From a virus, in the IMG/VR virus record IMGVR_UViG_3300035182_002389, positions 124,001 to 188,000 of that record: a stretch of 64,000 nucleotides of DNA; one strand, 5' to 3'. Below, piece after piece: positions 2,658 through 13,042 of the stretch. Both the position numbers and the translations under genes were made by a program. The notes under the pieces are model-generated. The model saw only the letters and a program-made list of their open reading frames with translations, did not search any database and had not been told where the DNA came from. Every line of letters starts with the position of its first letter. The first letter of the stretch is position 1.

Positions 2658-3758
2658 ATGCCGTACATCAAAGGCGCCTCCGAAGAGTCCGTCGCACAAA
2701 ATGTGGATTTTGCCCTTCGCGAAGGAAAAAGCCACGATCAGGCGATGGCCATCGCGCGCTCCTACGCGAACCGCGTGCTCAAGGCACGCCGCCACGTCTG
2801 GACCCAAGAGCGCGAGCGCATCTTCCAGGTCGGCGTTCGGATGGGCGTCGCGAAGTACCACGGCAAACGAGCGCGCCGCGACGCTCCGCCGAAGCATGTC
2901 CGCAAAGCTCGCGTCTTCGTTCGCCTCTCCTACCCCCTCGGCGACGGGACGCAGAAGCAGCAAGAGGCCGTCGCGCGAAAAGCCGACATGCGCATCTACG
3001 AAGCTGCCGGGGGCCGTCTCACGACCAAATCGGGCGGCGCGTATGGCCGCCTCGGGCATCGCTCGCACTCGTTCGAGTACGCGACCCCCGACAGCGCCCA
3101 GCGCGTGCTCCACGCCATCGAGAAGCTCAAGATCAAGGGCCTGAAGATCGGCATCGTCTCGATCGTATGGGACGAATCGGGCCGCGCGCAGTCGACCTCG
3201 CTGACCTCCTTGCCGGCCGCGAAGCCAGCCAAGAAGCCGGCCAAGAAGCCGGCGAAGGCCGCGAAGAAGCCGGCCAAGAAGAAGCCGGCGAAAGCCGCGA
3301 AGAAGAGGCCCGCGAAGGCCGCGAAGAAGCCTGCGAAGGCCGCGAAGAAGAAGCCCGCGAAGGCCGCGAAGAGGCCGGCGAAGGCTGCGAAGAAGCCGGT
3401 CAAGACCTCGACCAAGACCTCGACCAAGAGGACCTCCGCCAAGAAGGTCGTCCCGACCTTCGAGGTGTGGGGCTGGAAGGGCAACAAGGGTCACAAGCTC
3501 TCGACCCACACCCGCGAGACCAACGCCATCGAAGCGGCGAAAAAGATCAAGGGCTACGACAAGGTCCGAGTGCAAGTTCACATGGGGCGCGAAACCAAGA
3601 GCTTCACCGTGCAGGGGCCGCGCGGCGGCGTCGGCCGCGTCGGCGGCACGATGCCGAAGTCGCGCGGACCTGCGAAGAAGACGACCAAGAAGACGGCCAA
3701 GAAAGCGGCAAAGAAGTCTGCCAAGACCACGCGCCGGCAGAGCGTGCCGCCGTTCTGA
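2658..3758 (+). CDS. histone H1-like DNA-binding protein with globular domains
   Basis: 366 residues. The N-terminal ~40 residues (NVDFALREGKSHDQAMAIA) resemble a short motif common in phage proteins. Residues ~45-175 form a globular basic domain. Residues ~185-255 are PAKKA/AKKPAKA repeats like the tail of histone H1 and bacterial Hc1/AlgP. Residues ~265-335 form a second small domain, and the end is again Lys/Ala-rich. It should bind and compact DNA in the cytoplasm or virion. It is one of four Lys/Ala-rich proteins here (others at 40678, 41265 and 41554). The repeat DNA has a matching low-complexity GCGAAGAAG texture. Confidence 0.75.
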   Translation: MPYIKGASEESVAQNVDFALREGKSHDQAMAIARSYANRVLKARRHVWTQERERIFQVGVRMGVAKYHGKRARRDAPPKHVRKARVFVRLSYPLGDGTQKQQEAVARKADMRIYEAAGGRLTTKSGGAYGRLGHRSHSFEYATPDSAQRVLHAIEKLKIKGLKIGIVSIVWDESGRAQSTSLTSLPAAKPAKKPAKKPAKAAKKPAKKKPAKAAKKRPAKAAKKPAKAAKKKPAKAAKRPAKAAKKPVKTSTKTSTKRTSAKKVVPTFEVWGWKGNKGHKLSTHTRETNAIEAAKKIKGYDKVRVQVHMGRETKSFTVQGPRGGVGRVGGTMPKSRGPAKKTTKKTAKKAAKKSAKTTRRQSVPPF

Positions 3759-3761
3759 GCT

Positions 3762-4007
3762 TCACCCTCCCGCGCCCACGCGAAGCGTGAGGAACAAGTG
3801 AGCGCCTTCGGCAAAACCGTAGGCGCTCACGAGTTTTGTGGTGCACGCAATCGTCACTCCATTTTCGTGGCGCAGCTCCCAATCCTCGCGCGGGCGCGAG
3901 GCATTCTGGCTCATGGAAAGCGCCTCTTCGATGAGGCTGTCGAGCGGCACGGCCTCGTGAAATCCAAGCGCAACTTCCTGCCCGTTCACGACGAAGGTGA
4001 GCCTCAT
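3762..4007 (-). CDS. ubiquitin-like (beta-grasp) protein ending in Gly-Gly
   Basis: 81 residues. It opens with a beta-hairpin (MRLTFVVNGQEVALGF), has a central helix (LDSLIEEALSM), then PREDWELRHENG and ends LFLTLRVGAGG. This matches, from memory, a short bacterial family (DUF2604-type) with VSGQ..., PPEDWELRDE.G and LFLSLKAG.GG, which is considered ubiquitin-like. The exposed C-terminal GG is the feature used for conjugation by E1/E2 enzymes. No E1, E2 or JAB gene is visible in the window. A second ATG gives an 84-residue form starting at 4016. It is transcribed against its neighbours, and its upstream region holds two dyad sites. The fold is likely; conjugation is inference. Confidence 0.75.
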   Translation of the reverse strand: MRLTFVVNGQEVALGFHEAVPLDSLIEEALSMSQNASRPREDWELRHENGVTIACTTKLVSAYGFAEGAHLFLTLRVGAGG

Positions 4008-4037
4008 GCGGACCATTTCTACCACGAAGGGGCCTCT

Positions 4038-4052
4038 GACTTCTGGCAAGCC
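4038..4052. promoter_or_regulatory. 15-bp dyad site (GACTT-CTGGC-AAGCC)
   Basis: Matches RRCTT-N5-AAGCY. It lies 31 bases upstream of the leftward ubiquitin-like gene and 154 bases upstream of the rightward gene at 4206. On the minus strand a TAGAAA box follows closer to the ATG. Confidence 0.5.
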
Positions 4053-4060
4053 ACCGAGGC

Positions 4061-4075
4061 GGCTTTGCACAAGTA
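4061..4075. promoter_or_regulatory. 15-bp dyad-like site (GGCTT-TGCAC-AAGTA)
   Basis: An imperfect copy of the recurring dyad, 23 bases from the one at 4038, in the same divergent spacer. Two sites about two helical turns apart suggest cooperative binding. Confidence 0.35.
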
Positions 4076-4205: not shown

Positions 4206-4721
4206 ATGGCCTTCGACCTGAGCTTCGGCTCTCTCGGCTCGGCTCGCGACAAGCTGGCGAGCTGGCACGACGAAAACAAGCTCGCCATCAGCCGCGCGAC
4301 CGCCACCGCCGAGATCGGCGCTTCCGCCTTCGGCTTCGGCTGGCTCCACGGCCGCTACCCGAAGATGGACGTGTTCGGCGTCGACCTCTCGCTGCTCGCC
4401 GGCGTCGGTCTCATCGGGCTCTCCTTCCTCGACAAGAAGGAAGAGGGGGAAGGCGGCGCGTACGGCCACCACCTCGCTTCGCTCGGCCAGGGCGCCCTCG
4501 CGGTGTACCTCGCCAAGCTCGGCGCGGATTGGGGCGACAGCATGAACCCCGACTCGCCGCACTACTGCGGGATGTACACGCCGAGCGCCACGGCGCCCGC
4601 GCAGTTCCAGCCCAAGGTCCCGCCGCCCGCCGCGGTCAAGGGCTACGACTACGCCCACACGGGCTTCAACGTCTCGACGGCCGACATCGGCCAGATGGCC
4701 CAGCGCCGTAACTGGGGCTGA
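4206..4721 (+). CDS. predicted membrane protein, 171 aa
   Basis: 171 residues. An N-terminal soluble stretch is followed by one or two hydrophobic segments: TAEIGASAFGFGWLHG and DLSLLAGVGLIGLSFL (about residues 38-78). A third amphipathic region follows at 93-110, and the C-terminal half is soluble and Pro/Tyr-rich with one Cys. No family recognised. It stands directly before the strongly led 187-residue gene, so it may be a virion or virion-membrane component. AGGGAG lies about 12 bases before the ATG. Confidence 0.6.
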   Translation: MAFDLSFGSLGSARDKLASWHDENKLAISRATATAEIGASAFGFGWLHGRYPKMDVFGVDLSLLAGVGLIGLSFLDKKEEGEGGAYGHHLASLGQGALAVYLAKLGADWGDSMNPDSPHYCGMYTPSATAPAQFQPKVPPPAAVKGYDYAHTGFNVSTADIGQMAQRRNWG

Positions 4722-5535: not shown

Positions 5536-6462
5536 ATGACCGAAGGCTACAATCCTTTCCCCGGCTTCTTCGTCGCCGACACGATCTGCTCGCTCCAGAA
5601 CGCCGACACGAGCGGCCTCGAAGACGGCTGCCTCGCGTACGTTCGCGCGAACCAGTCCTACTACGCGTACGGCGCGTCCTTCGCGCACGCGCCCGCACCG
5701 AACGGCACGACCGTGCTCTCGACCTTCAACGGCCCGGCGGCCGTTCAGGCCGATGGCAGCCCGTGCACCGGCGAGCAGTCGCACGCACACACGGCCGGCG
5801 GCCCCGGCCGCTGGATCCTGACGACCCTCGGATACGGCGGGTTCCAGGCGCCCTTCAAGGCACGCGCCGTGCAGTCCCTCGCCGTCGCCCACCTCAACGC
5901 CGCGAGCACGAGCGCCGATGGCGTAACGCTCCTCGAAGGTGACGTCGTCCTGCTCACCGCCCAGACCCCCGGGACCGATAACGGCCCCTACGTGGTCGGT
6001 CCGGTCGTCGGCCCCGCCGCTCCGCTCACCCGCCCGTTCTGGTGGAGCCCCGACACGGTCATCCCGTCCGGGACCGTCATCGAAGTCGGCGGCGAAGGCA
6101 CGCTCTTCAAGAACAGCTCGTGGAAGGTCACGGGCGCCTCGTTCGTCGTCGAGACGGGCGGCCCCGGCCTGTTCCCGCAGAACCAGCGCTACACGGGCGC
6201 TCTCGGAGCCGGCGATCTGTTCCTCGACGGAAGCGGAGCCTCGGGCCACCACGACATCGGCCTCTACATGACCGCGGACGCCTCCGTCCAGGTCACGCGC
6301 AGGGCGTTCTCGGGCGCTCTGCTGACGGTCGAGTACGAGGTCCTCGTTCAGATGCCGGGTCAGCGCGGCGCCGCGGCGCTCCGCATCCAGGCCCAGCAGG
6401 CGGACGGGTCGCTCAGCAACTACGACGTCAGCACCCTCTCCGTCCTCGTCAACAACTGGTGA
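5536..6462 (+). CDS. M-x-EGYNP family protein with tail-fibre extension
   Basis: 308 residues, the longest member of the first paralogue array. Residues 1-~95 are the shared module: MTEGYNPFPGF, LQNADTSGLEDGCLAY, VLSTFNGP and GRWILT. The extension (about 105-195) reads GDVVLLTAQ..DNGPYVV, a module seen in many phage tail-fibre proteins, and the C-terminal ~100 residues are beta-rich. Likely a virion fibre or adhesin. AGGAGA is seven bases before the ATG. Seven sibling genes carry the same head, so the head may be the attachment part and the rest the variable part. Confidence 0.7.
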   Translation: MTEGYNPFPGFFVADTICSLQNADTSGLEDGCLAYVRANQSYYAYGASFAHAPAPNGTTVLSTFNGPAAVQADGSPCTGEQSHAHTAGGPGRWILTTLGYGGFQAPFKARAVQSLAVAHLNAASTSADGVTLLEGDVVLLTAQTPGTDNGPYVVGPVVGPAAPLTRPFWWSPDTVIPSGTVIEVGGEGTLFKNSSWKVTGASFVVETGGPGLFPQNQRYTGALGAGDLFLDGSGASGHHDIGLYMTADASVQVTRRAFSGALLTVEYEVLVQMPGQRGAAALRIQAQQADGSLSNYDVSTLSVLVNNW

Positions 6463-6509
6463 TCGACGGAGGCGATTGCCGAAGGTGATCGCCTACGCGG
6501 CGGAGAACA

Positions 6510-6536
6510 AGGGTTCGTGTTCGGACCCTCGTTTTC
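6510..6536 (+). terminator. possible intrinsic terminator
   Basis: AGGGT and ACCCT pair across a ten-base loop that itself contains TTCG-type sequence, followed by CGTTTTCC. The stem is short but the U-tract is in place. It stands after the 308-residue gene and just before the dyad at 6545. Confidence 0.45.
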
Positions 6537-6544
6537 CCCGCTGC

Positions 6545-6559
6545 GACTTGTCGCAAGCC
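6545..6559. promoter_or_regulatory. 15-bp dyad site (GACTT-GTCGC-AAGCC)
   Basis: A full match, 76 bases before the next ATG (6636). AGTAGAATCTG, with a -10-like TAGAAT, follows about 27 bases downstream of the dyad, so this looks like a new transcription unit for the paralogue array. Confidence 0.55.
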
Positions 6560-6635
6560 GTGCTTCTTCATTTGCCCCAAGCGGAGTAGAATCTGCTCTA
6601 CTGAGGGCGCAACCCTTTCGACGGAGATCAGCACC

Positions 6636-6983
6636 ATGCCCAACGAAGGCTTCAATCCGTTTCCCGGCTTCGTGCACGCAGACAGCACCTGCGCGCTCCA
6701 GAACGTCAACACCGACGGCCTCGACATCGGCTGCCTCGCGAAGACGCCCCAGATCCAGCAGCGCGCTCCCGGCACGCTGGACGGCTGCACCTACTGGCGC
6801 CTCGACGAGACAGACCCGCCGCTCAGCGTCGACGGCAACGACGTGCTCGCGACCTACAACAGCGGCATGCCGCTCGACGGCGCGGCCCACCCGTGCACCG
6901 TCGTCGAGCCGAGCGCGCACAGCCTCCGCGGCACGCAGCGCTGGATTCGCCTCAACATCTACGACGTCGCGTCCGACCTCTAG
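6636..6983 (+). CDS. M-x-EG[YF]NP family protein, 115 aa
   Basis: 115 residues, a minimal single-module member. It has MPNEGFNPFPGF, CALQNVNTDGLDIGCLA, VLATYNSG and QRWIRLNIYDV. Four Cys are partly shared with siblings. Conserved head and tail blocks flank a variable middle of about 30 residues. It is the second of seven tandem genes. Function unknown; probably a virion surface or fibre-associated protein. CGGAGATC precedes the ATG. Confidence 0.65.
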   Translation: MPNEGFNPFPGFVHADSTCALQNVNTDGLDIGCLAKTPQIQQRAPGTLDGCTYWRLDETDPPLSVDGNDVLATYNSGMPLDGAAHPCTVVEPSAHSLRGTQRWIRLNIYDVASDL

Positions 6984-7075
6984 TCCACATCCGTCAGCGC
7001 CGACGGACCCGTCGCGTCGGCGCTGGCGGACACGCTCTGCAACATCTTCATCCGGTCTTCCTCTCGGAGCGCGCC

Positions 7076-7441
7076 ATGAACGAAGGTTACAATCCGTTTC
7101 CGGGGCTCGTGTACGCGCCGGACGTTTGCACGCTCCAGAACTTCAACACCGACGGGATGATCAGCGGCTGCCTCGCGTCCACCCCCGATCCCCGAAAGAG
7201 GCTCGGGCCTTTCGGGCCGACCCTCCACAGTTGGTTCTACCGCTTCTGGTACCCGACGACCGAAGATGCGTTCATCATGCCCGAGGTAAACGGGTGGAAC
7301 GTTTTTTCGACGTACAACGGACCGGAAGGCCAGAACGACGGCGACCCGTGCCCGGTGCTGCCGAAAGGCATCAACGCGCACACGGCCTCGGGACCTGCGC
7401 GGTTCATCCGACTCAACATCTGGGACGTCTTCGGCTACTGA
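7076..7441 (+). CDS. M-x-EGYNP family protein, 121 aa
   Basis: 121 residues. The head is MNEGYNPFPGL, then CTLQNFNTDGMISGCLAS, an aromatic-rich middle (WFYRFWYP) and FSTYNGP, ending ARFIRLNIWDVFGY. Here the usual RWI[LR] reads RFIR. The start is fixed by the family signature; CGGAGCGCGCC before it is a modest ribosome site. No membrane segment. Confidence 0.65.
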   Translation: MNEGYNPFPGLVYAPDVCTLQNFNTDGMISGCLASTPDPRKRLGPFGPTLHSWFYRFWYPTTEDAFIMPEVNGWNVFSTYNGPEGQNDGDPCPVLPKGINAHTASGPARFIRLNIWDVFGY

Positions 7442-7474
7442 TCGTTCAGAGCCTGCGCAGCCGAAGAAAGCACC

Positions 7475-8254
7475 ATGAGCGAAGGATACAACCCGAATCC
7501 CGGCTTCTTGTCCGTCGACACGACGTGCGAGTTGCAGGCAAAAAGCATCGACGGGCTCGATGAGGGCAGCGTCGCGTTTGTGCGCGAAGACGTCTTCGTC
7601 CCTTGGATCGACGCAAGCCCTGACAGCGGCCCCTACCACTACTACCGCCTCGCGTTCTTCACGTTCCCCGAGTTCCCGTTCTTCAAGGTCGGGCCCATCC
7701 CAAGGTCGTTCAGTCCGAAGGCGGCCGGCGCGAAGACGGCCGGCGCGAAGACCGCTCCTGCGGCTCCTTTCGTTCGGTATTCCGACTACCAGCGAGCCAT
7801 GGAGAAGGCAGCCTTCGACGTCTACAGCGCCGCTGTCGACGCCTTCGAGAAGGTCAACCCGGAAGCCGCAACCAAGATCCGTGCAAAGATGACGGCCAGC
7901 GCTGCTCTCGCTGCGACCAAGCCTTCCGCGAAGACTCCGAAGAACCCGCTGACCGCAAAGCGCGCCGCGGCCCAAGCGCCTGTCACCCCGCCCCTCGGCG
8001 CGACGGGTCCGAAGCAGCTTCTCACCAACCCCAAGCAGAGTCTCATCGATCCGCCTGCGGACCCGAGCCTCTGGACCTATGCGCCGTGGCCGGACGGATC
8101 CAGCATCCTCGCAACCTGTGCGAGCGGGCCCGCGCTTCAGCAAGACGGCGAAACCCTCTGCGGAAACGGCGTCGGCGAAGCTTCGCTGCAACGCTACGCC
8201 GGCACGAGTCGCTGGCTTCTGATCAGCGTCCAAGACGCCATCCTGTTCGACTAG
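7475..8254 (+). CDS. M-x-EGYNP family protein with Ala/Lys helical insertion
   Basis: 259 residues. It begins like its siblings (MSEGYNPNPGF, CELQ, DGLDEGSVAF, YHYYRLAF) and ends like them (SSILATC, SRWLLISVQD), but about 125 extra residues sit between. The insert is rich in Ala, Lys and Pro (GAKTAGAKTAP, FEKVNPEAATKIRAKM), probably helical and basic. The usual GCLA Cys is replaced by GSVA. It reads as a domain inserted into a beta loop, with possible DNA- or membrane-contact ability from the Lys content. Confidence 0.65.
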   Translation: MSEGYNPNPGFLSVDTTCELQAKSIDGLDEGSVAFVREDVFVPWIDASPDSGPYHYYRLAFFTFPEFPFFKVGPIPRSFSPKAAGAKTAGAKTAPAAPFVRYSDYQRAMEKAAFDVYSAAVDAFEKVNPEAATKIRAKMTASAALAATKPSAKTPKNPLTAKRAAAQAPVTPPLGATGPKQLLTNPKQSLIDPPADPSLWTYAPWPDGSSILATCASGPALQQDGETLCGNGVGEASLQRYAGTSRWLLISVQDAILFD

Positions 8255-8309
8255 GACCGCGTCGTTCGACGACGCTCACGATTCACGTTCAACCATCGGA
8301 GAAGAGAAC

Positions 8310-8705
8310 ATGCCGAACGAAGGCTTCAACCCGTTTCCCGGGTTCATCAACGCTGAGACGACCTGCGACCTCCAGGCGGCCAACACCGACGGTCTGCAAG
8401 AGGGCTGCCTCGCCTTCGTGCGCACGCCGATCATCTTCGAGAACGACCCGAACCTCGGACCGTTCCACTACTACCGCTACACCACCATCGACACCGTGCT
8501 GACCCCCGCGCTGCCCGTCGACGGCGTGCTCGTGCTCGCGGCCTACAACAGTCAGCCGGCTCGCCAGCAGCCCTCGCTGAGCCCCTACGTCCCGGGCAGC
8601 GTCGGCGCTCTCTGCGCCCCCATCCCCGATCAGGTCGACGCGCACCAGCCCGGCCCGGCCCGCTGGATCCTGGTCGACATCAGCGACTTCACCGTCGCGC
8701 CCTGA
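8310..8705 (+). CDS. M-x-EG[YF]NP family protein, 131 aa
   Basis: 131 residues. MPNEGFNPFPGF, CDLQAANTDGLQEGCLAFV, FHYYRYTTID, VLVLAAYNS and ARWILVDISD. The middle is longer than in the 115-117 residue members. The leader GGAGAAGAGAAC is a good ribosome site and is shared, with small changes, by the next two genes. Confidence 0.65.
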   Translation: MPNEGFNPFPGFINAETTCDLQAANTDGLQEGCLAFVRTPIIFENDPNLGPFHYYRYTTIDTVLTPALPVDGVLVLAAYNSQPARQQPSLSPYVPGSVGALCAPIPDQVDAHQPGPARWILVDISDFTVAP

Positions 8706-8758
8706 TCGCCTTCGGCGACCCGCCCCTTCCACGACTCACCCGTCACGGAGAAGAAGAC

Positions 8759-9109
8759 ATGACCGAAGGCTACAATCCGTTTCCCGGCATCATCGTCGTG
8801 GAAACCACCTGCGAGCTTCAGAACACCGACACGAGCGGTCTCGATGACGGCTGCCTCGCGTACGTGAAGACCAAGGGCGCCGGCCTCGCCGTCGACTTCC
8901 ACTACTTCCGCCTCTACGACTACCGCGTCGGCGCACCGCCCCCGAACGGCACGACGATCCTGTCGACCTACAACGGTCCGCCGTCCGTTCAGCAGGGGAT
9001 CAACTGGAACACCGCCGGCGCCGTCTGCGCGCAGCAGGGCGACGCGCACCACGCGGGCGGCACGGTCCGCTGGATCCTGACCGACATCATCGACAACGCC
9101 AACGCCTGA
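8759..9109 (+). CDS. M-x-EGYNP family protein, 116 aa
   Basis: 116 residues. MTEGYNPFPGI, CELQNTDTSGLDDGCLAYV, FHYFRLYDY, TILSTYNGP, then VRWILTDIIDN. Of the siblings it is nearest to the head of the 308-residue gene at 5536. GGAGAAGAAGAC precedes the ATG. Single module, no membrane segment, three Cys. Confidence 0.65.
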   Translation: MTEGYNPFPGIIVVETTCELQNTDTSGLDDGCLAYVKTKGAGLAVDFHYFRLYDYRVGAPPPNGTTILSTYNGPPSVQQGINWNTAGAVCAQQGDAHHAGGTVRWILTDIIDNANA

Positions 9110-9160
9110 CGTTCGGCAACGCGCTGCCTGCTTGATACCGACGCGCCTTCGGAGAAGAAC

Positions 9161-9514
9161 ATGAGCGAAGGGTACAATCCGTTTCCCGGTATCATCCAGG
9201 CAGCGAGCCGTTGCGAGCTTCAGAACACGGTCACCGACGGACTCGACGAAGGATGCCTCGCGCGCATCACGCCTGACGACGACGATCGGAACGGCTGGTT
9301 CTACTACCGCTACTACGCCCTTCGGGACGGAGAGGCTTCTCCGCAAATCGACGGGTATTTCGTGCTGTCGACGTACAACGGGCCCGAAGCCAAGTTCCGA
9401 GAGAACGGCGATTTCGCCTGGCGCACCGTTTCGTGCCCCGACCAAGGCCCCGCACACAGCGACCTCGGGCCGGGCCGCTGGATCCTGACGAACATTCAGG
9501 ATTTGGACTGGTGA
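9161..9514 (+). CDS. M-x-EGYNP family protein, 117 aa
   Basis: 117 residues, the last of the seven tandem members. MSEGYNPFPGI, CELQNTVTDGLDEGCLARI, FYYRYYALRDG, VLSTYNGPEA and GRWILTNIQDLDW. Ribosome site GGAGAAGAAC. After it a GGGCGG/CCGCCC stem (about 9520-9539) without a T-run may mark the end of the array transcript. Confidence 0.65.
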   Translation: MSEGYNPFPGIIQAASRCELQNTVTDGLDEGCLARITPDDDDRNGWFYYRYYALRDGEASPQIDGYFVLSTYNGPEAKFRENGDFAWRTVSCPDQGPAHSDLGPGRWILTNIQDLDW

Positions 9515-10186: not shown

Positions 10187-11848
10187 ATGAATCCCCTCCT
10201 GCTCCTGCTCGTCGCCGGTGGTGCTGCCGCGGTCTACGCCTTCACGAAGAAGAAGGCCACGCCCACGAGTCTGCCCGTCGACACGACGCCCATCGATCTC
10301 ACGTTGGGCAAGCAGGGTACGGCTCTCACGATCGATTCCCACCGGCCACCTCCGCCTCCGCCTCCGCCTCCGCCTCCGCCTCCGCCTCCGCCTCCGCCTC
10401 CGCCTCCGCCTCCGCCTCCGCCGGCCATCCTCGCGCCGCAGGCGCTCGACGACGCGCAGAAGCAGAGCCTCTTCAAGCGTCTGCCGGACATGGTCATGGT
10501 CACCGACCCTGCGAGCGGACCGCTGGCGCACAGGGTCAGCCTGCGCGACAACGCCAACAAGAGCCGAATGGGTGGCGAGCTGTTTCCGGCCGTCTTCAGT
10601 GACACGCTCGCGACCATCGTCACGCGCACGGACGATCCCGGCGGCATGGAGGTCGAGTTCGTCGATATGCCGACCGCGGCCGTGCTTGTCGCGCCCGGCA
10701 GCCGATGGTTCCTCTTCCTCAAGCCGGGCGAGGCCAAGACGCTGACCGCGCTGCCGGGCATGCCTTCGCTCGCGAAGCCTCCGACCCCGGAAGAGATCGC
10801 AGCCGCCAAAGCAGCGGCCGACAAGGAGGCCTCGGACAAGGCCGCGGCCGACAAGATCCTTGCGGACAAGGCTGCCGAGGACGCCGCTCAAGCCGCTCTG
10901 CTCGCTGCCGAGGCCGACAAGATGGCCGCCGAGAAGGCCGCCGCCGACGCCGCTGCTGCCGCCAAGGACGCCGCTGGCAAAGCAGCCGCTGCCGAGGCCG
11001 CCAAGCGCGCGTCCATGAGCTACGCGGACGCGACGCAGGACCTTCACATCAGCTCCTTCATCGTCGATGGGCTGCCCGCCGTGCCGTGGAGCGATTGGAC
11101 GAAACAGATCGCCGATCAGCTCCAGGCCGCCGGCTACACGACGGCCGCCAACGTGCTGTACGCAAAGTCTCCCGAGGCGGCTCAGAAAATCGCAGACGAG
11201 ATTGCCGCGAAAGCTGCCATGGGCGTCGGCGAAGCGGGCGACGCGCTCGGCTACCCCATCACCATCATCTTCGATCTGCTCTCCGGCAAGGACCCGGCGC
11301 AAGCCCTCGAAATCTCCAACAAGATGCGGGATGCAGGCTACACGGCCGCGGCCGACACGCTGTACGCGACGACGCCCGAATACGCCACGGCGCAGCGCGC
11401 CAAGATGTACATCATCGACGTGGGCGCCAACGAATATGCGGTCTTCCGAGGCACGAACATCGGCGCCATGCTCGCTCTCGCCGATCAGCTCGCGACCAAG
11501 GGATACGTCGAAGCTTCGGAGCAGCTTTTCGCACGGGCCGACAGTCTCGGATGGTTCCCGAAGAGCAACGACCATCCCCTGCGCATGACGGTCGACGACA
11601 TGACGGGCCGGAGCGCGCCGGCAGGACTCTTCGACGGGTCCTACGCGAGCAAGCAGCTCTCGATTGCAGGCGTCAACCTGCTCAGCCTCATCGACATCGT
11701 TGGCGCCCTGCGCAACCATCAGGACGCGGCCATCTCTTCCGGGAACAAGTACGCCGGGATGTTCGAGAACGCTGGGTATCACGTCGCGGCAAGGCAGCTT
11801 CTCGACCTGACCGCATCGCTCGTGCATCTGTTCGCTGCCGGCGCGTAG
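10187..11848 (+). CDS. membrane-anchored protein with 26-proline tract
   Basis: 553 residues. Residues 3-20 are a glycine-zipper membrane segment (LLLLLVAGGAAAVYAF) followed by TKKK, then a Thr-rich linker and 26 consecutive prolines (10346-10423). Next comes a ~120-residue domain shared with the following gene (QALDDAQKQSLFKRLP; SRWFLFLKPG). An Ala/Lys/Asp-rich helical rod (~205-285) precedes a C-terminal part with repeats of the type ADQL..AGY..AA..LYA. Probably an envelope-spanning virion or injection component; no enzyme motif seen. The CCTCCG repeat can vary in length without losing frame. Confidence 0.65.
   Translation: MNPLLLLLVAGGAAAVYAFTKKKATPTSLPVDTTPIDLTLGKQGTALTIDSHRPPPPPPPPPPPPPPPPPPPPPPPPPPAILAPQALDDAQKQSLFKRLPDMVMVTDPASGPLAHRVSLRDNANKSRMGGELFPAVFSDTLATIVTRTDDPGGMEVEFVDMPTAAVLVAPGSRWFLFLKPGEAKTLTALPGMPSLAKPPTPEEIAAAKAAADKEASDKAAADKILADKAAEDAAQAALLAAEADKMAAEKAAADAAAAAKDAAGKAAAAEAAKRASMSYADATQDLHISSFIVDGLPAVPWSDWTKQIADQLQAAGYTTAANVLYAKSPEAAQKIADEIAAKAAMGVGEAGDALGYPITIIFDLLSGKDPAQALEISNKMRDAGYTAAADTLYATTPEYATAQRAKMYIIDVGANEYAVFRGTNIGAMLALADQLATKGYVEASEQLFARADSLGWFPKSNDHPLRMTVDDMTGRSAPAGLFDGSYASKQLSIAGVNLLSLIDIVGALRNHQDAAISSGNKYAGMFENAGYHVAARQLLDLTASLVHLFAAGA
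10346..10423 (+). repeat. CCTCCG hexanucleotide microsatellite (26 Pro codons)
   Basis: Twelve to thirteen tandem CCTCCG units encode an unbroken proline run between the membrane anchor and the folded part of the protein. It should form a stiff polyproline-II spacer. Confidence 0.85.
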
Positions 11849-11860
11849 CCATCTGCGCCA

Positions 11861-11875
11861 GCCTTACGGTACACT
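11861..11875. promoter_or_regulatory. degenerate dyad site (GCCTT-ACGGT-ACACT)
   Basis: Same position relative to the ATG (nine bases) as the dyad before 10187. The left half and loop are kept and the right half is degraded. It includes a -10-like TACACT. Confidence 0.35.
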
Positions 11876-11884
11876 GGAGACACC

Positions 11885-13042
11885 ATGAACCCCCTGCTCC
11901 TCGTTCTGATCGCTGGCGGCGCTGCTGCGGCCTACTTCCTCACGAAGAAGTCGACGCCCGTCGCCGACACGACCGGGCAGCCGGCGCAGCCCGATCAGCC
12001 TGTCACGCCCCCGGGGCCTGCTGTCAAGCCGAAGCCGGTCGCCGTGCTTCCGCAGGCGCTCGACGCGGGGCAGCGCAGCGCGCTCTACAAGTCCCTTCCG
12101 ACGATGGATCTCGTGGACGGTCCGACCAAGACGCCGTCGAACGCGTCCGGGACCATCGCCGTCTCGAAGATCAGCCTCAAGAAGAACGCCATCTCCAGCG
12201 AGGTGCGCACCGACGCGTTCCCCATCATCGCTTCGGCGAACCTCGGCGGCCCCGACGGCAAGGCGCACAAGACGACCATCCTCGCGACCATGACCAACGA
12301 ACCTGGCGGGATGGAGATCGCCGCAGTCGACGGCGCCGACCTCGCGCGCTCGATGCTGCTGCCGGGCAGCCGCTGGTTCCTCTTCATGGAACCGGGGCAG
12401 GCCACGACGCTCTCGAAGGAAGCGGGCGCGCCTGCCATCCCCGCGAACCTTCCGCCCATCGTCATGCCCGACACCGGCGCCCCGAAGCAGGCGCTCACAA
12501 ATCCGCTCACGAGCAGCAGTCACATCTCGAAGGACAACATCGTCTTCAAACCGATCTTCCTCATCCACGGACTGATCGGCGACAAGGCCAACACTCCGCT
12601 CGCTGACATCCCGGGCCCCACGGGCATCAACGCGCGCGCTGCCGCGACCCGCTCCGACTCGGCCTCGATGGTCACGTGGGCCGACCAGCTCATCTCCGAG
12701 GGCTACACCAAGGCCGCCCAGGCGCTCTTCGATCAAGCCTACGCGATCGGATGGCGGGCATCGCCGACCGATCACAAGGAGCGAATGATTCTCGGCGACA
12801 TGCTCGACGCGAGTGCGCCGAACTACGACGCGGCCTACATCGCAGACGGCGTCGTCTTCAGCAATGCGGGCGACGGATCGTTCAACCTCGACGATCTTCG
12901 CGCGCTCGTCTACGCGGCGAAGACCGTGCCTCTGCCGACGCAGGTCGGCCCGCTCAACGACGCTGCGGCGAGCTTCCTCGCTGCTGGCTACACGGGCCTC
13001 GCGGGCGAGCTGAGCAACCTCGCCAAGAGCATCGTGGGCTGA
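11885..13042 (+). CDS. membrane-anchored paralogue of the 553-aa protein
   Basis: 385 residues. Begins MNPLLLVLIAGGAAAAYFLTKKS, then a Pro/Gln linker instead of the poly-Pro tract. The shared domain follows (LPQALDAGQRSALYKSLP; LPGSRWFLFMEPGQ) and a C-terminal ADQLISEGYTKAAQALF..AYAIGW repeat like the neighbour's. No catalytic motif seen. With the genes at 10187 and 13245 it forms a three-gene family, probably from tandem duplication. GGAGACACC precedes the ATG. Confidence 0.65.
   Translation: MNPLLLVLIAGGAAAAYFLTKKSTPVADTTGQPAQPDQPVTPPGPAVKPKPVAVLPQALDAGQRSALYKSLPTMDLVDGPTKTPSNASGTIAVSKISLKKNAISSEVRTDAFPIIASANLGGPDGKAHKTTILATMTNEPGGMEIAAVDGADLARSMLLPGSRWFLFMEPGQATTLSKEAGAPAIPANLPPIVMPDTGAPKQALTNPLTSSSHISKDNIVFKPIFLIHGLIGDKANTPLADIPGPTGINARAAATRSDSASMVTWADQLISEGYTKAAQALFDQAYAIGWRASPTDHKERMILGDMLDASAPNYDAAYIADGVVFSNAGDGSFNLDDLRALVYAAKTVPLPTQVGPLNDAAASFLAAGYTGLAGELSNLAKSIVG

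Follow-up and report, generated by a model that had tools for sequence, protein, structure and literature searches.

A stand-alone BilA-type ubiquitin-like gene in a tailed-phage genome and its possible bearing on bacterial Bil conjugation

The stretch of DNA analysed here, hereafter the window, comprises 64,000 nucleotides and corresponds to bases 124001-188000 of a linear virus record of 202,518 bases (IMGVR_UViG_3300035182_002389). On its minus strand it encodes a small ubiquitin-like protein (Ubl) which, judged by its sequence, is a stand-alone homologue of BilA, the modifier of Bil-type operons. The structure to which Bil couples its Ubl is the central tail fibre of the phage (PMC12948488, PMC11364771) and, consequently, phages face selection to escape it. 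The reading that we favour, tentatively and at slightly less than even chances, is that the viral Ubl enters and disturbs the Bil conjugation pathway of the host. The broader proposition that phages repeatedly capture the Bil modifier without its enzymes, either as a counter-defence mimic or as a virion tag of their own attached via host E1 and E2, is evenly balanced. The gene and the codons of its tail are located as follows.

3762-4007, minus strand: apparently orphan bilA-like gene (DUF2604), assigned by Pfam DUF2604, an AlphaFold2 beta-grasp model and Foldseek matches to 8tyx and 8tyz; the Ubl core ends LFLTLRVGAGG.
3765-3797, minus strand: codons of the conserved tail LFLTLRVGAGG, whose last Gly corresponds, in the alignments and in a tail census, to the terminal Gly conserved in BilA.

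The 81-residue leftward gene named in the original prediction is present and intact, with 81 codons plus a stop (ATG at 4005-4007, stop at 3762-3764), and the C-terminal end of its product reads ...HLFLTLRVGAGG. The match to Pfam DUF2604 (PF10790) extends over positions 7-85 of the 85 in the profile, up to the final one, with E 2.8e-17 and 63.3 bits against a curated cut-off of 25 bits; because of this match, the predicted gene can be taken as real and chance as excluded. Moreover, the frame is stop-free and its codon log-likelihood is the highest among the six frames over the interval, although low for this virus. The closest relatives share 32-44% identity with the viral Ubl over its full length. 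As for the fold, an AlphaFold2 model based on an alignment of 24 homologues is a beta-grasp with a mean predicted local distance difference test score (pLDDT) of 88.8 and a floppy GG tail. Its top two Foldseek matches in the Protein Data Bank (PDB) are 8tyx, entitled 'bacterial Ubl-deubiquitinase complex', and 8tyz, entitled 'bacterial E1-E2-Ubl complex' (template modelling scores 0.87 and 0.88, respectively), with ubiquitin itself ranking below both, and the sequence matches in the PDB carry the label Ubl(BilA). In other words, the DUF2604 family, the beta-grasp fold and the link to bacterial ubiquitin-like conjugation, all proposed earlier from the letters, are borne out, the family being the BilA Ubl of an A-B-C-D conjugation operon.

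The viral Ubl ends VGAGG, and its final Gly lines up with the one conserved at the end of BilA. By alignment, then, the Gly that E1 activates is kept, as had been anticipated. The free C-terminal Gly-Gly is likewise there, but it is not phage-specific: in the tail census, 8 of 81 bacterial loci also end with a free terminal Gly, while one extra residue follows in 67 of 81, and the rhizobial homologues have AG instead of GG at the C-terminus. Core residues are retained throughout (V7, N8, G9, L30, N35, P39, W43, E44, G50, L71, F72, L73, G78 and the terminal Gly), and those that never vary among bacteria are for the most part preserved (N8, G9, L30, N35, P39, W43, E44, G50, G78), whereas Q38, N42, K46 and D54, among others, are changed. 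With the BilA of rhizobial DUF2604 BilABCD-type systems (PDB 8tyx, 8tyy, 8tyz, 8tz0), the viral protein has in common the Pfam family, the beta-grasp fold, the LFLxL tail and a terminal Gly, at 32-43% identity; it differs in the substitutions Q38R, N42D and D54A, in an insertion at 59, in terminating exactly at the reactive Gly and in being encoded by a phage without BilB, BilC and BilD alongside. Rapid divergence at such positions, together with a weak second profile match to YukD, the Ubl of type VII secretion loci, would also suit a beta-grasp protein that was recruited independently of Bil for binding, such as an adaptor in the virion, in replication or in regulation. We regard this unconjugated role as improbable, given that the window copy and the second phage copy described below retain the LFLxL tail with the terminal Gly, features for which it has no need.

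In bacteria, the family belongs to a conjugation operon. When genomes were searched with only the Ubl, 77 bacterial loci were recovered; they come from rhizobia, Actinomycetota, Acidobacteria, Gemmatimonadetes, Eremiobacterota, Dormibacterota and others, and genes for an E2 (CEHH), a JAB peptidase and an E1 lie downstream of the Ubl in 76 of them (in one of these, the E1 gene is cut by the contig end). The exception is a Mesorhizobium locus (L082, around 8001-8400) with a DUF2604 Ubl and an E2 stub only, a decayed Bil-type operon. This operon type was predicted in 2006 by Iyer and colleagues from plasmid NGR234 (PMC1779556), whose members of the operon give matches to Metal_CEHH, Prok-JAB and Prok-E2_C plus ThiF. 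In the Bil system, the E2 is BilB, which carries a CEHH motif (Cys138, Glu144, His146, His151), while BilC and BilD are a JAB peptidase and the E1, respectively (reviewed in PMC11354881). The second gene of the DUF2604 operons has the identical CEHH spacing, with Cys138 in R. etli, and their E1 matches a PDB entry labelled E1(BilD). In addition, their JAB and E1 proteins match PADLOC BilC and BilD, whereas the PADLOC Bil models match neither the CEHH protein nor the Ubl of the operon, the BilA profile being silent on the rhizobial and on the viral DUF2604 Ubl alike. These PADLOC results identify the operon as a sister form of the Collimonas Bil system. The two share a general pathway and differ in the modifier, since Collimonas BilA, which is attached to phage tail fibres, is a two-Ubl, ISG15-like protein (PMC11364771) and the DUF2604 Ubl has one Ubl domain. 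From this relationship to a system whose tail-fibre tagging is reported, we infer a defence role for the single-Ubl operon. The R. etli operon adjoins TIR and caspase-family genes, and such neighbours are common for defence islands.

Two of the loci, L019 (a Gemmatimonadetes metagenome-assembled genome, open reading frame (ORF) through 7974-8819) and L086 (Methylorubrum podarium, through 7959-8783), carry BilA and the CEHH E2 in one open frame as a Ubl-Gly-E2 fusion, which a JAB peptidase might have to cut. As both loci were used for training, the matches of the CEHH model on Ubl ORFs are a probable artefact.

The virus origin of the stretch, supposed in the original prediction, agrees with its place in a virus record that encodes tail and tail-fibre proteins, endolysins, RtcB, thymidylate synthase, DNA methyltransferases, a helicase and a head-decoration-like protein. 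On account of the tail, tail-fibre, endolysin and other phage genes, the record represents the genome of a tailed phage. It gave no match to the Terminase_6N or tyrosine-integrase profiles, and one large window protein matched nothing among known phages.

No conjugation enzyme was detected alongside the Ubl. The ThiF and Prok-JAB profiles gave no match in the 202.5-kb record, while they did match in control genomes. The UQ_con and Metal_CEHH profiles were also without a match, a result of lesser weight because they were silent in the control genomes as well, and operon-partner hidden Markov models (HMMs) run over all six frames of the record returned nothing convincing, the single E2-model match coinciding with the viral Ubl ORF and being the probable artefact described above; the absence of an E2 is thus drawn mainly from the operon-built HMM. 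Since these searches gave no E1, JAB or E2, the viral Ubl gene appears to be an orphan, and the lack of these genes, noted before for the window, extends to the remainder of the record. Accordingly, the E2 with CEHH motif, JAB and E1 that stand alongside the modifier in a complete BilABCD system were not found in it, and the enzymes would have to be supplied by the host if conjugation occurs.

The nearest phage by one helicase (about 38% identical) is Virus Rctr197k, which gave no Ubl match. This large phage (KX853510.1) has a ThiF-like gene among hypothetical genes (L136:26756-27379), and a scan of three neighbours of that gene gave no Pfam match.

A second phage copy emerged from the IMG/VR collection. 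Exact-peptide scans with the viral Ubl protein and two alignments, as well as scans with two neighbour genes, found no match; the window's own record was possibly excluded from the IMG/VR scans. The degenerate-DNA pattern W-E...LFLxLxxGx[AG]G, run over 2.9 million contigs, revealed two further contigs with one same second gene, namely the 155-kb IMGVR_UViG_3300025012_000031 and the 11-kb 3300024999_000996. A relaxed pattern gave 27 matches, among which only those two records are true by HMM. Because this pattern picks up the window gene and all but one of the 81 known loci (80 of 81), stand-alone phage DUF2604 genes are rare in the collection. No homologue is present among INPHARED phages; the Gordonia phage matches, which are membrane proteins (E 0.3-0.7), were dismissed.

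The second phage Ubl scores 66 bits on DUF2604, yields the same kind of structure model and shares 32% identity with the window copy. Both have a VGxGG tail and stand alone, as the ThiF, JAB and CEHH searches of the second-copy records found no match. In contrast to the window copy, the second one ends GCGGHN, that is, two residues (HN) past the GG, and would for this reason need trimming by a peptidase. Moreover, it is located in a T4-like cluster of replication and nucleotide genes, with a gp44-type clamp loader and dUTPase-, dNMP-kinase- and topoisomerase-like proteins close by, the latter three read from the sequence without a family search. In base composition it resembles the adjacent genes, and its stop overlaps the next start.

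In a tree, the two phage Ubls do not group together, and the window copy falls in a supported group (98/97) with R. etli, Acidobacteria, Actinomycetes and others, a weak placement given that both phage branches are very long. This separation suggests, with some uncertainty, that BilA was captured independently by two unrelated phages. The window gene has a G+C content at third codon positions (GC3) of 0.74, as opposed to 0.86 +/- 0.05, and in codon score it ranks below each of the 74 short genes in this virus, a foreign codon usage that points to a recent acquisition of a single gene. The same codon usage, the long branch and an orientation opposite to the neighbours would fit neutral cargo, namely a fragment of a host Bil operon acquired by chance and still present. 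This explanation is unlikely, in view of an intact ORF with retained core residues and of an intact copy in a second phage lineage, where the gene has a neighbour-like composition and a stop overlapping the next start.

Interference with Bil would operate as follows. During infection, the captured viral Ubl would be accepted by host BilD (E1) and BilB (E2), competing with host BilA for these enzymes, or occupying or misdirecting them. Alternatively, it might trap BilC, cap the targets with a variant tag, or yield harmless conjugates. The virion would be spared as a result, and the viral Ubl would act as a molecular mimic blunting the Bil defence. Since Bil harms phages by tagging their tail fibres, disturbance is the most plausible effect of a viral BilA in the pathway, and the retention of the Ubl alone in two unrelated phage records is consistent with it. 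Several points weigh on the other side. The two virus records are linear and possibly incomplete, and enzymes could be encoded beyond their ends. In addition, the defence role of the DUF2604 operon is derived from homology to Bil, the PADLOC BilA model did not match, and just two phage lineages, a small number, are involved. Furthermore, a conjugation-competent Ubl could enlarge the tagging pool and add to the damage.

Such a Ubl, coming without enzymes, could also boost an existing pathway to the advantage of the virus, with the extra BilA strengthening host Bil against rival phages and its own tail being insensitive. We consider this superinfection weapon highly improbable: BilA supply is not known as limiting, and no tyrosine integrase was found (other integrases being outside the search), hence no sign of long host residence. 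The remaining alternative is a hijack, in which the viral Ubl, coupled by the Bil enzymes of the host to proteins of the virion or of the host, would serve the virus as a tag or an assembly chaperone. The intact conjugation tail and the position of the gene beside the structural and tail gene region speak for it, as does baculovirus v-ubi, a virus-encoded ubiquitin that is a substrate of host processing enzymes (PMC4584293). It appears rather unlikely, however, as a Bil system would be needed in every productive host, known conjugation harms virions, and the T4-like phage copy lies beside DNA replication and nucleotide genes, not structural ones. The likeness to v-ubi is one of concept, a virus-encoded modifier working with host enzymes; v-ubi belongs to a eukaryotic virus, is a true ubiquitin 76% identical to the eukaryotic one and, beyond the fold, has no relation to the viral Ubl. 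The phage TAPI Ubl is similarly a phage-encoded ubiquitin-like domain with a conserved C-terminal Gly, but it has a second domain and an adjacent JAB/NlpC tail gene. The viral Ubl, a DUF2604 protein of 81 residues with a single domain, in a record without a Prok-JAB match, is ruled out as a TAPI Ubl.

The DUF2604/BilA family is already known, while orphan phage copies appear unreported in the open-licence papers searched, and this literature contains no description of a phage answer to Bil. The Bil tagging of phage tail fibres resembles the action of ISG15 in animals. Repeated capture of the Bil modifier by phages would, if true, represent a ubiquitin-mimic arms race in bacteria, parallel to the ubiquitin mimicry of eukaryotic viruses, and the existence of a second phage lineage hints at more than one capture of the modifier. 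A stand-alone phage BilA is, moreover, a small and directly testable counter-defence candidate, and would offer a natural variant for dissecting the bacterial E1-E2 pathway.

Further features of the locus concern the start of the gene, a hairpin and the flanking genes.

4008-4025, minus strand: candidate N-terminal extension of the same gene, from an in-frame ATG at 4014-4016 (three more residues) or GTG at 4023-4025 (six more).
4033-4037, minus strand: Shine-Dalgarno-like AGAGG, read directly from the sequence 7 nt 5' of the GTG start that it would serve.
3793-3835, strand not assigned: hairpin in the 3' end of the Ubl gene, with 19-nt arms, 84% paired (-34.6 kcal/mol, z -4.7).
2658-3758, plus strand: convergent neighbour, lysine-rich, 366 aa, whose N-terminus matches phrog_2423 (unknown function).
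4206-4721, plus strand: divergent neighbour, 171 aa, first of a long rightward gene run.

The original prediction had extended the feature to 4075, where beyond the start there is only an upstream open frame. It had also placed two dyad sites next to the gene. One is indeed a strong hairpin, but inside the 3' end of the gene, and is perhaps a terminator for the convergent gene ending at 3758; the second, a 9-bp repeat at 4255-4287, is within the next gene.

Nine paralogues starting with EGYNPFPG variants are encoded at 5536-9514 of the window and 83434-86220 of the virus record, seven of them in tandem immediately right of the Ubl gene, and a head-decoration PHROG is among the matches, for one of the nine. 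The gene at 1757-2485, which shares the strand of the Ubl gene, encodes a protein of 242 aa that contains an HExxH motif (HEAAH) and may be a zinc peptidase; it has no PHROG or Pfam match. Two long proteins encoded at 10187-13042 start MNPLLL(L/V)L(V/I)AGGAAA(V/A)YxxTKK; they combine a hydrophobic segment at the N-terminus with stretches rich in proline or alanine, and no family was found for them. Finally, across positions 120001-202518 of the virus record, which include the whole window, the GC skew is negative throughout and nearly all genes are directed rightward.
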